A stretch of 64,000 nucleotides of DNA from Anaeromyxobacter oryzae (GTDB taxonomy: Bacteria; Myxococcota; Myxococcia; Myxococcales; Anaeromyxobacteraceae). This document shows, piece by piece, positions 32,433 to 35,388 of this stretch. Position 1 is the stretch's first letter, and every line of letters starts with the position of its first letter. The notes under the pieces were generated by a model. That model was not told where the DNA came from, ran no database searches, and saw only the letters and a list, made by a program, of their open reading frames with translations. The stretch spans positions 3,282,481 through 3,346,480 of the forward strand of contig NZ_AP025591.1 in the NCBI RefSeq assembly GCF_023169945.1. Reading direction: 5' to 3'. Made by a program: the position numbers and the translations under genes.

Positions 32433-33374
32433 TCACGGCCGTCGCCGGCGCCACCAGGACAGCTCGACGACCGTGCCATCGTACCCGCGCCAGGCGATGG
32501 GGCGGGCGGCCTTCCCCTCACAGGCATGCCGGGCGATCCGCGCTCCGTAGCCGATCGCGCGCCCTCCGCATTCGGGGCAGGTGAACCGGGCCTCGAGGCC
32601 GGCGCGGTCCCCGGGGGCGAGTGGCTGGTCGCCTGGGCTCGTGCCCGAGCTACTCTGGGTCGGGGCGGACGCGGCAGTCTGCCGCGGGGCCGGGCCGAAG
32701 AGGCCGCGCGCCCGGTAGGCCTCGAGCTCGGCGATCTCGGCCGCCTCGCCGCCGAGGTCCCGGTCGGCGTCGGCGCGGGCCTGGGCGGCGCACGTCGGGC
32801 AGGGCGGGAAGCCGAGGCTCCGGGCGACCACGATGGACACGCCCTCCGAGCCGTCCTGCTCCCACTCCTCCGTCGCGTCGACCTCGACGGCGGGCACGCC
32901 GGCGGCGGCCAGGGCGGCCTCCTTCTCCGGCTCGACGGCGTGCGTGACCAGCACCTCGAGCGCGAGCCGCGGGGCACCGCCGCGGGAGACGAGCACGTCG
33001 GCGCGGAGCAGGCCGACCGCGCCCTCCGGCTCCGCGCGGTCGCCCTCCTCCGCGAGGTCGCGCGGGGCGAGGCGCCGGCACGAGGGGCAGCGGGCGAGCA
33101 CGGTCACGCGCCGGACGCCGCCGAACGCGTCGGCGCAGAGCGCGAGGAGCCGCTCCTTCGCGTCGAGGTGGAGCGCGGTCTCGGGCGCGGTGAGCGGGCA
33201 GGTGGAGCCGGGCAGGTGCGCGAAGTGCCGGGCGCGGACCTCGCCGAGGTGCGGCACGAGGGGCTCGCCGCAGCCGAGGCACGTGAAGGGCCCGCGCGCG
33301 CGCCGGTCCTTCGGATCCACCCGGGCGACGTGGAGCTTGTTCCCGTCGCGATCGCGGGCCCAGGCGAGCTGCAC
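32433..33374 (-). CDS. CoiA-like / zinc-ribbon protein, hypothetical
   Basis: 313 residues from a GTG at 33374. The first half shows CoiA-like features: HVARVDPKDRRARGPFTCLGCGEPLVPHLGEVRARHFAH (C-x2-C then H-F-A-H) and a nuclease-like core ADVLVSRGGAPRLALEVLVTHAVEPEKEAAL with E-V-L-V. A further zinc ribbon CPEC is near the end. CoiA is a competence-related protein with a restriction-endonuclease-like fold. An in-frame ATG at 33512 would add 46 residues, but those are encoded across the dispersed repeat at 33387-33428, so the shorter start is preferred. Function unproven. Confidence 0.65.
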   Translation of the reverse strand: MQLAWARDRDGNKLHVARVDPKDRRARGPFTCLGCGEPLVPHLGEVRARHFAHLPGSTCPLTAPETALHLDAKERLLALCADAFGGVRRVTVLARCPSCRRLAPRDLAEEGDRAEPEGAVGLLRADVLVSRGGAPRLALEVLVTHAVEPEKEAALAAAGVPAVEVDATEEWEQDGSEGVSIVVARSLGFPPCPTCAAQARADADRDLGGEAAEIAELEAYRARGLFGPAPRQTAASAPTQSSSGTSPGDQPLAPGDRAGLEARFTCPECGGRAIGYGARIARHACEGKAARPIAWRGYDGTVVELSWWRRRRP

Positions 33375-33386
33375 CGAATCCGACCA

Positions 33387-33428
33387 CCCTGAGCGTAGCG
33401 CACGCGGAGCGTGCGCGGAGTCGAAGGG
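33387..33428 (+). repeat. dispersed palindromic repeat, copy 2
   Basis: Same ends as copies 1 and 3: CCCTGAGCGTAGC ... GGAGTCGAAGGG with a GC-rich inverted repeat between. It lies just upstream of the preferred start of the CoiA-like gene. Confidence 0.85.
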
Positions 33429-33609
33429 GAGCCCGGAGCGCACCGGCGCGCGGATCGGGCCGCCGGCGGCCGCGACGGCGGGATGCTTCACGGGGGTGCG
33501 CCGGCGCGGCATCGGCGGGAGTCTAGCCGATGAGCGCCGCCACGCTCCCCTCCCGGGCTCCTGCGGTCCCCGGCGCGGCGGGGTAGGTGATTCCGACGAG
33601 GAGGATTCG

Positions 33610-34065
33610 ATGGCACTCGAGGTCGGCAAGAAGGCGCCGGACTTCGCGCTCCCCGACGAGAACGGGGAGGTCGTGAAGCTCTCGCACTTCAAGGGCAAGC
33701 GCGTGGTGGTCTTCTTCTACCCGAAGGCGAACACCTCGGGTTGAACGCAGGAGGCCAGCGACTTCCGTGACGAAGTCGACGCGTTCGAGAAGCACGACGT
33801 GGCGGTGCTGGGCATCTCGAAGGACTCCCCCGACGCGCAGCGGAAGTGGAAGGAGAAGCTCGAGCTGCCGTTCCCGCTCCTCTCCGATCCCGACGCGAAG
33901 GTGCAGAAGGCGTGGGGCGCCTGGGGCGAGAAGAACATGTACGGGAAGACCGTCGAGGGGACGATCCGGACCACCGTCCTCGTCGGCCCCGACGGCAAGG
34001 TGGAGAAGGTCTTTCCGAAGGTGAAGGTGGACGGCCACGTGGCGGACGTGCTCGGGAGCCTGTAG
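33610..34065 (+). CDS. selenocysteine-containing peroxiredoxin (Bcp/PrxQ type), UGA at codon 45
   Basis: 151 residues with TGA (33742-33744) read as selenocysteine. The frame runs without another stop on both sides: VGKKAPDFALPDENGE and VVVFFYPKANTSG before, TQEASDFRDEV, VAVLGISKDSP and FPLLSDPDAKV after. The UGA falls exactly at the peroxidatic position of the family motif PxxxTxxC (P38, T42, Sec45); the conserved Arg is R120 (GTIRTTVLVG). The PrxQ resolving Cys five residues on is Ser50 and there is no Cys in the protein, so a one-Sec mechanism using an outside thiol is inferred. GAGGAG precedes the ATG. A SECIS-like hairpin follows the UGA. It would otherwise be called as a 44-residue fragment plus a start at 33799. 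It should reduce hydroperoxides. Confidence 0.85.
33759..33778 (+). promoter_or_regulatory. candidate bacterial SECIS hairpin
   Basis: CGACTTC-CGTGAC-GAAGTCG: a perfect 7-bp stem and 6-base loop carrying a G-U (CGUGAC). The stem begins 14 bases and the loop 21 bases after the UGA, matching the distance needed for SelB binding. The hairpin is inside the coding region, as bacterial SECIS elements are. Confidence 0.6.
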
Positions 34066-34077
34066 AACCGCGGCTCC

Positions 34078-35388
34078 ATGTCCAAGCCGCACCGCCTCCG
34101 CCCGCCCCGCAACGACCTCGTCGACGCCCTCGTCCTCGAGGTGCACGGCCTCGTCCACGACCAGGGCTGGCTCGCCGACCGCGCGCTCGAGCGCGTCCTG
34201 CGGCGCGAGCGCAAGCTCTGGGCGAACGAGCGTCGCACCGTGGCGGAGGCCGTCTACGGGATCCTCCGCTCCCAGGGGCAGCTCGACTGGCTCCTCGGCG
34301 GCAAGCCCGACCTCGCCACGCGCTACGCCGCGTGGCTCGTCCGCACCGGCGGCGCGACGGTCCCCGAGGCGGCGCGCCGCGTGGCGGTCCAGGCGAGCGC
34401 GCTCGCCGGGCTCGAGGGCGGCGACGCGCGGATCGCGGCCATCGCCGATCCCATGGAGAAGCTCGCGGTGGAGGCGTCGCTCCCGCGCTGGATCGTCGAG
34501 CGCCTCGTGGCGGAGCGGGGCGAGGAGGAGGCGCGGGCGCTCGCGAAGGTGGTGAACGCGCGGGCTCCGCTCACGGTCCGGGCGAACCTCCTCGTGAACG
34601 ATCGGGAGAAGCTCCGGGCGCGCCTCGCCGAGGAGGGCGTCGGCGCCGAGCCGACCCGCTTCTCGCCGTGGGGGCTCGTCCTCGACGGCCACCAGAACGC
34701 GTTCGCCCTGGCGTCCTTCCAGGACGGCGGCTTCGAGATCCAGGACGAGGGCAGCCAGCTCATCGCGCTCGCCTGCGGGGCGCGGCCGGGCAAGCTCGTC
34801 GTGGACGCCTGCTCCGGCGCGGGGGGCAAGGCGCTCGCGCTCGCCGCGGAGATGCACAACAAGGGCGATCTCTTCGCCCTCGACTCGGATCCGGGGCGGC
34901 TCGACGAGGGGAAGCGCCGCGCGCGCCGCGCCCACGTGCACAACCTCCGCACCCGGCCCGTGCCGGCCGGTCCGGAGGCGGCCGCCGCGATCGCCGACCT
35001 CGAGGGCCGGGCCGACGTCGTGCTCGTCGACGCGCCGTGCAGCGGCCTCGGCACCCTCCGCCGGAAGCCCGACGCGCGCTGGCGCCTCAAGCCGGACGAT
35101 CCCGAGCGCTTCGCGGTGCTGCAGAAGGAGCTGCTCGGCCGGTTCGCGGCGCTGGTCAAGCCGGGCGGCCGGCTCGTCTACGCGACCTGCGCCATGGGCC
35201 GGACCGAGAACGCGGACGTCGCGGAGCACGCGGAGAAGGTGCTCGGGCTCCTCCCGGCACCGCTCGCGCCGCTCCTCGGCGCGGAGCGGGCCGCCGCGCT
35301 CGGCGTGGAGGGGAACCGGCTCGAGCTCTTCCCGCACAAGCACGGGACGGACGGGTTCTTCATGGCGGCGTTCACGCGGCCGAAGTAG
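34078..35388 (+). CDS. rsmB: 16S rRNA (cytosine-5) methyltransferase, RsmB/NOL1/NOP2/Sun family
   Basis: 436 residues. An N-terminal NusB-like helical domain (about 10-150) precedes the SAM-dependent domain: FQDGGFEIQDEGSQLIA, VVDACSGAGGKALALAA (SAM loop), the Pro-Cys motif VDAPCSGLGTLRRKPDARW and the catalytic-Cys region VYATCAMGRTENADV. These match RsmB, which makes m5C967 in 16S rRNA, more closely than RsmF. It follows the peroxiredoxin by 12 bp and precedes mutM by 20 bp, all on the plus strand. Confidence 0.92.
   Translation: MSKPHRLRPPRNDLVDALVLEVHGLVHDQGWLADRALERVLRRERKLWANERRTVAEAVYGILRSQGQLDWLLGGKPDLATRYAAWLVRTGGATVPEAARRVAVQASALAGLEGGDARIAAIADPMEKLAVEASLPRWIVERLVAERGEEEARALAKVVNARAPLTVRANLLVNDREKLRARLAEEGVGAEPTRFSPWGLVLDGHQNAFALASFQDGGFEIQDEGSQLIALACGARPGKLVVDACSGAGGKALALAAEMHNKGDLFALDSDPGRLDEGKRRARRAHVHNLRTRPVPAGPEAAAAIADLEGRADVVLVDAPCSGLGTLRRKPDARWRLKPDDPERFAVLQKELLGRFAALVKPGGRLVYATCAMGRTENADVAEHAEKVLGLLPAPLAPLLGAERAAALGVEGNRLELFPHKHGTDGFFMAAFTRPK

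Follow-up and report, generated by a model that had tools for sequence, protein, structure and literature searches.

Selenocysteine (Sec) peroxiredoxins of the COG1225/Bcp type, with the motif TxxU, are a listed family of selenoproteins (PMC9312934, PMC1088965, PMC13188914). A table published in 2006 lists three Sec-peroxiredoxins for Anaeromyxobacter dehalogenans (PMC1794560), and the initial annotation of the locus described here was correct in treating peroxiredoxin-type selenoproteins of this kind as already known. The genus is also represented in an alignment of Sec peroxiredoxin-like families, according to a figure legend (PMC1914089). We infer that one of the three A. dehalogenans proteins is the orthologue of the protein described here. 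In glutathione peroxidases, the presence of Sec has been tied to the loss of the resolving cysteine (PMC8614756), and the Sec form of MsrA is of the one-Cys type (PMC4479559). A literature search by title and beginning of abstract, in which subscription journals were thinly covered, returned neither a Cys-free Sec PrxQ nor a Sec-linked loss of the resolving Cys in peroxiredoxins.

The peroxiredoxin gene of Anaeromyxobacter oryzae is located at positions 33610–34065 on the plus strand of the window, the 64,000-nucleotide stretch of DNA that was analysed. The frame begins with an ATG at 33610, ends with a TAG stop codon at 34063–34065, and encodes a complete Bcp/PrxQ peroxiredoxin that is interrupted only by the TGA of codon 45 (33742–33744, plus strand). 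A probable ribosome-binding site, AGGAGG, can be read from the sequence at 33599–33604 (plus strand), 5 nucleotides upstream of the ATG, and similar purine-rich stretches precede the start codons of many relatives. When the TGA is read as Sec, translation gives a product of 151 residues that contains one Sec and no Cys. In the motif P38-K-A-N-T42-S-G-U45-T-Q-E-A-S50, the TGA is located exactly at the Cys of PxxxTxxC, the peroxidatic position. Codon 50 (AGC, 33757–33759, plus strand) encodes a serine at the +5 site, which is occupied by the resolving Cys in Cys-x4-Cys PrxQ enzymes. The two sides of the TGA match the AhpC-TSA family separately, codons 1–44 with an E-value of 7.6e-12 and codons 46–151 with an E-value of 1.2e-22. 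The single interruption by TGA at the peroxidatic codon, the Bcp/PrxQ sequence on both sides, the Ser at the resolving position, and the absence of Cys had been claimed in the initial annotation and are borne out by the translation and the profile matches. The anticipated splitting of the gene is also plausible, because a GTG-started open reading frame of 88 amino acids (33799–34065, plus strand), which corresponds to the C-terminal part of the peroxiredoxin, could be picked by a gene caller.

With 158.7 bits, the full frame passes the cut-off of 140 for the Bcp model PRK09437, and it stays below the cut-off of the PrxQ equivalog NF053650 (164.9 bits, cut-off 260). It is a member of neither the PrxU equivalog NF040737 (66.9 bits, cut-off 270) nor Prx-SUH NF045827 (19 bits, cut-off 298). 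The protein combines the peroxiredoxin motif Pxxx(T/S)xx(C/U) with a distant conserved arginine, R120, which is invariant across 20 aligned members and is probably the catalytic Arg. The second Cys of the two-Cys PrxQ enzymes, whether at +5 or at another position of the protein, has no counterpart here. The AlphaFold2 model, calculated from 40 sequences (the protein from the window and 39 related ones), has a mean pLDDT of 94.7. A Foldseek search with this predicted model identified an integrative Bcp model as the top match (TM score of 0.96) and 5enu as the best crystal structure (TM score of 0.93), followed by PrxQ from Xanthomonas. Residues 45 and 50 share one predicted helix, which is formed by residues 43–54.

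The downstream neighbour of the peroxiredoxin gene is a 16S rRNA methyltransferase gene of the RsmB/F type (34078–35388, plus strand). Of the 25 loci L017–L041, all but L037, L040, and L041 have it next to the peroxiredoxin gene (22 loci), and it therefore marks orthology. The divergent neighbour on the other side encodes a protein with a CoiA_N domain (32433–33521, minus strand) and was seen in 12 of the same 25 loci. Neither of these two adjacent genes encodes a redox partner. Within the 64,000 nucleotides of the window, no tRNA genes were found, and an Rfam scan at gathering thresholds gave no matches.

The genome, a single contig of 6.72 Mb, contains the complete system for the incorporation of Sec. 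SelA (525 bits, cut-off 268), SelB (312 bits, cut-off 242), and SelD (382 bits, cut-off 125) were all identified, together with a tRNA-Sec with the anticodon UCA (76.9 bits). The initial annotation had made its reading depend on the presence of these genes. The selD gene (G000:C1:4449674-4450603, plus strand, locus L048) has one in-frame TGA of its own, and SelD is probably itself a selenoprotein. A second peroxiredoxin gene of the same genome (G000:C1:5520432-5520743, minus strand, locus L241) also has a TGA in frame at the peroxidatic codon. Its segment FYPKAFTAGUTREISAYRD belongs to a protein matching AhpC-TSA with an E-value of 3.5e-37, and its +5 position is likewise without Cys.

From 60 related genomes, the 30 top-ranking matches, the gene itself among them, were read. 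Codon 45 is TGA in 22 of them, among which is the gene from the window, and TGC in the other eight. The sequence on either side of the TGA is intact, and residues 6–115 align without internal gaps. The 22 TGA genes come from several genera and contain no further stop codon and no frame shift; orthologues with the TGA are present in seven other genomes of the genus Anaeromyxobacter. The relatives read have either TGA or a Cys codon at this position, and the sequence after it is undegraded, contrary to the pseudogene pattern that the initial annotation had named as refuting its reading. At a threshold of E<=1e-35, 137 of the 195 genomes of the phylum were matched, and 23 of the 138 matches contain a TGA, in each case at this site. 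Among the 22 genomes with the TGA gene, SelB was found over its cut-off in 15 and tRNA-Sec in 19; the three that lack both (G008, G015, and G016) are drafts with completeness of 66, 80, and 92%. One genome of the same genus (G004) has SelB and tRNA-Sec, yet no orthologue at E<=1e-35, which reflects either the loss of the gene or a gap in the assembly.

The rsmB neighbour is shared by 19 of the 22 TGA genes and by three TGC genes of genus g6 (from genomes G013, G018, and G021), so that a single locus occurs with either kind of codon. Four combinations of peroxidatic and resolving residues, Sec with Cys, Sec with Ser, Sec with Leu, and Cys with Cys, occur at this one syntenic locus within one bacterial family. 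In the g6 loci L029, L033, and L035, TGC replaces TGA in the rsmB neighbourhood, although the genomes have SelB and tRNA-Sec. These orthologues appear to have returned from Sec to Cys. The table in PMC1794560 gives no Sec-to-Cys event for the peroxiredoxin family, and the g6 genes look like such an event.

A SECIS-like hairpin with a stem of 7 base pairs and the loop CGUGAC is positioned at 33759–33778 (plus strand), where the initial annotation had noted it. Its sequence is CGACTTC-CGTGAC-GAAGTCG, and its first base is the 15th after the TGA. Taken alone, the hairpin is weak: a 7-bp Watson-Crick hairpin is found at an equal distance after 10 of the 488 plus-strand TGAs in the window and from 175 of 9132 sampled positions (1.9%). 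Its folding has a z-score of −1.33 and was equalled by 18 of 200 shuffled sequences. All seven stem pairs are standard in 22 of 22 TGA genes, and this conservation ranks above the presence of the lone hairpin. Covariation was absent from the 22 genes of the Anaeromyxobacter side, in which six of the seven pairs are invariant and one varies on one side, and we therefore relied on the bias in codon usage. Of the 22 TGA genes, 14 have CGT and 8 have CGG as the arginine codon of the loop, and none has CGC, whereas the other arginine codons within codons 1–112 of the same genes include CGT in 0 of 87 and CGC in 35 of 87 cases. The eight TGC relatives use CGC six times, CGG once, and CGT once at the same position. 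For invariant residues, codon identity is 0.83 within the hairpin (6 columns) and 0.65 outside it (29 columns), with a p-value of 0.069. The hairpin lies just 3′ of the UGA and has the G/U-bearing loop of a bacterial SECIS, with no Rfam match, and the choice of the loop codon is the best evidence that it may function as one. The Sec machinery, the TGA with intact flanks in 22 of the 30 matches read, the paired hairpin, and the loop-codon bias together indicate that the gene almost certainly encodes a selenoprotein.

Among the matches listed, genes with TGA extend to Acidobacteriota (L112 and L114) and to a planctomycete (L095), and SelB was over its cut-off in all four TGA hosts tested (those of L112, L114, L095, and L078). 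Of 533 confirmed stretches, the scan of contigs retained the best 80, and one of its two peptide patterns called for Cys or Ser as the resolving residue. In a pattern search of 396 genomes of Acidobacteriota, 13 proved to contain Bcp-like genes with a TGA, five with Cys and eight with another residue at the resolving position. Six of the 13 are far from the protein from the window (scores below 340) and may be other types of peroxiredoxin. The acidobacterial Sec-Bcp genes have a different possible hairpin at the same place, mostly around a GUU loop. In the 17 sequences from which the pairing was itself picked by eye, 84.6% of cells are paired, a value reached by none of 500 shuffles. The seven double-changed cells were equalled in 2 of 500 shuffles, the three pairs with a double change in 98 of 500, and the five further pair types in 353 of 500. 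The resolving codon is within the stem and faces the loop-side Arg codon, with which it forms a G-C pair in eight sequences and a C-G pair in three; it is unpaired in the other six of the 17, including four genes with Ser. Strict covariation of the two codons was thus only partly borne out. As judged from these alignments, the RNA structure and the residue at the acidobacterial resolving site may be coupled.

The resolving site of the 22 TGA genes is occupied by Ser in five (G000, G001, G002, G005, and G011), Leu in two (G010 and G015), and Cys in 15. For a wider comparison with Cys forms, the sequences added were the 30 matches from Acidobacteriota for which loci were available, 59 of the 60 that followed in rank (G400 was omitted), and G583, a lower-ranking match that had been flagged with a TGA and whose site proved to be TGC. 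In all, 218 loci were read, many of which represent the same gene twice, and 161 rows entered the tree. Twenty-five rows (six Sec and 19 Cys) with alignment scores below 340 were dropped, and the removal of three remaining duplicates left 158 genes, 35 with Sec and 123 with Cys. The resolving Cys is missing from 13 of the 35 Sec genes and from 6 of the 123 Cys genes, and no other Cys whatsoever is present in 11 of the 35 and 2 of the 123, respectively. Two of the six Cys-coded exceptions (L080 and L116) have a Cys at position 78, within a predicted helix of residues 74–84. They may use it as an alternative resolving Cys; position 81 of the same helix aligns with a Cys of the Xanthomonas PrxQ. 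Parsimony on the tree, which is built from few columns and has 64 of its 157 forks open, places seven to eight losses of the resolving Cys on Sec branches, which make up 22% of the tree length, and four on Cys branches (one-sided binomial p-value of 0.001–0.004). The last spare Cys was lost five to six times on Sec branches and twice on Cys branches (p-value of 0.002–0.008). The Sec-Ser rows in the family on the Anaeromyxobacter side may share one or two losses rather than three. Related Sec forms thus seem, from the reconstructed changes, to have lost the resolving Cys repeatedly.

There is a fair, though lesser, probability that this excess is an effect of sampling or a property of one clade, and not a consequence of Sec. 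Midpoint-rooted parsimony places most of the Sec rows in one part of the tree, with a single Sec gain at the base of a group of 63 rows from Myxococcota and Acidobacteriota, within which Cys was regained three times, and one separate gain of Sec. A test on sister pairs of Sec against loss of the resolving Cys had too few usable pairs (three, with a median p-value of 1) and was not significant, and part of the Sec rows were supplied by TGA-directed searching. However, within the same 63-row group, all 26 Cys-coded rows keep the resolving Cys, and the Sec rows changed to Ser and Leu separately. The dropped low-scoring rows agree with a link to Sec, as the resolving Cys is missing from five of the six Sec rows and present in 19 of the 19 Cys rows, so that dropping them worked against the claim.

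The computed properties of the locus, namely the gene, the Sec machinery, the conserved UGA with its hairpin, the predicted fold, the absence of Cys, and the excess of losses on Sec branches, point to a one-Sec PrxQ/Bcp peroxiredoxin that is recycled by an outside thiol, probably thioredoxin, and in which selenium makes a built-in resolving Cys dispensable. We assign this reading a probability of about 0.8. From these properties we infer the insertion of Sec, the peroxidase activity, the reductant, and the cause of the Cys loss. SelB, guided by the hairpin after UGA-45, would bring the Sec-tRNA with its UCA anticodon to the codon. Sec45 would then attack hydrogen peroxide or an organic peroxide and be converted to a selenenic acid. 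Since the protein has no Cys anywhere, an outside thiol, in the likeliest case that of thioredoxin, would have to reduce the oxidised selenium via a mixed selenenylsulfide. The chemistry of selenium would make the built-in resolving Cys dispensable, which could explain its replacement by Ser here and its independent losses in other Sec relatives. The interpretation given in the initial annotation, a one-Sec enzyme that needs an outside thiol, is supported.

The preference for thioredoxin over glutathione as the donor comes from the glutathione synthetase ATP-binding domain PF02955. Its best match in the A. oryzae genome is weak and partial (57.7 bits), which makes thioredoxin the likelier donor, and suggests that glutathione synthesis may be absent from this genome. 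PF02955 is over its curated cut-off of 23 bits in 25 of 25 genomes searched, and reaches 199–205 bits in G026 and G028. The BCP of Burkholderia cenocepacia accepts thioredoxin and performs better with glutathione (PMC6590489). There is a small chance that Sec is inserted and that two oxidised subunits resolve each other as a homodimer, through a Sec-Sec diselenide, with no direct part for an outside thiol. The native Sec-containing MsrA of Clostridium oremlandii, which is of the 1-Cys type, dimerises via its catalytic residue and is resolved by glutaredoxin (PMC4479559), but PrxQ proteins are reported to be monomeric or dimeric, with one of the dimers described as non-covalent (PMC6590489).

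Slightly less probable still is a role of the UGA mainly as a selenium switch, which would yield the Sec enzyme when selenium is available and a dead fragment of 44 residues when it is not. Such a switch follows from general knowledge of the decoding of UGA as Sec and has nothing specific to this gene, and the Cys orthologues of genus g6 manage without the UGA. That the gene is a pseudogene or contains a sequencing error, the TGA having arisen by nonsense mutation of what was once a Cys codon, is very improbable: TGA is one base away from TGC and TGT, and the dN/dS after it is not very low (approximately 0.3–0.8, versus 0.2–0.3 before it, in a simple count against seven relatives), but the reading is rejected by the conservation of the TGA at the exact codon in all 22 orthologues described above, its recurrence in Acidobacteriota and a planctomycete, the full Sec machinery, and the biased loop codon.

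We tentatively propose, at somewhat less than even odds, that the gain of Sec frees PrxQ from its resolving Cys, as was put forward for glutathione peroxidases. The result would be the recurrent formation of one-Sec enzymes without Cys that newly depend on outside reductants, and the loss of the resolving Cys would lock the lineage into the use of selenium. Such a lock would be expected because only forms that keep the resolving Cys were seen to return to Cys in the sample. The syntenic locus with its four Sec and Cys versions amounts to a natural experiment on the benefit of selenium to a peroxidase. It offers a way to test whether a resolving Cys is no longer needed once Sec is present, and whether the loss of this Cys makes the switch to selenium irreversible. 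Annotation that is unaware of Sec would cut the peroxiredoxin gene in two.

The closest described system, the TxxU family of Sec-peroxiredoxins (COG1225, Bcp), shares its family and the position of the UGA with the A. oryzae gene. The published accounts, as far as they were accessible, leave the resolving Cys undiscussed, whereas the protein described here is without any Cys. The Cys-x4-Cys Bcp/PrxQ enzymes, with the resolving Cys at +5, are alike in predicted fold, motif, length, and PRK09437 score, and differ in that Sec here replaces the peroxidatic Cys and Ser the resolving one. The Burkholderia Bcp 5enu is 42% identical in the Foldseek alignment and has Leu at +5, but it uses Cys. The BCP of Burkholderia cenocepacia is probably a one-Cys enzyme. 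PrxU and Prx-SUH belong to the same superfamily, and their models presumably describe Sec proteins, but the scores exclude the A. oryzae protein from both. Prx-SUH also appears in a table of PMC13188914. The Sec glutathione peroxidases of animals belong to another peroxidase family, whereas a bacterial peroxiredoxin with several apparent losses of the resolving Cys is described here. The family of the A. oryzae protein is already known, and the newer part is the Cys-free state and its recurrence.
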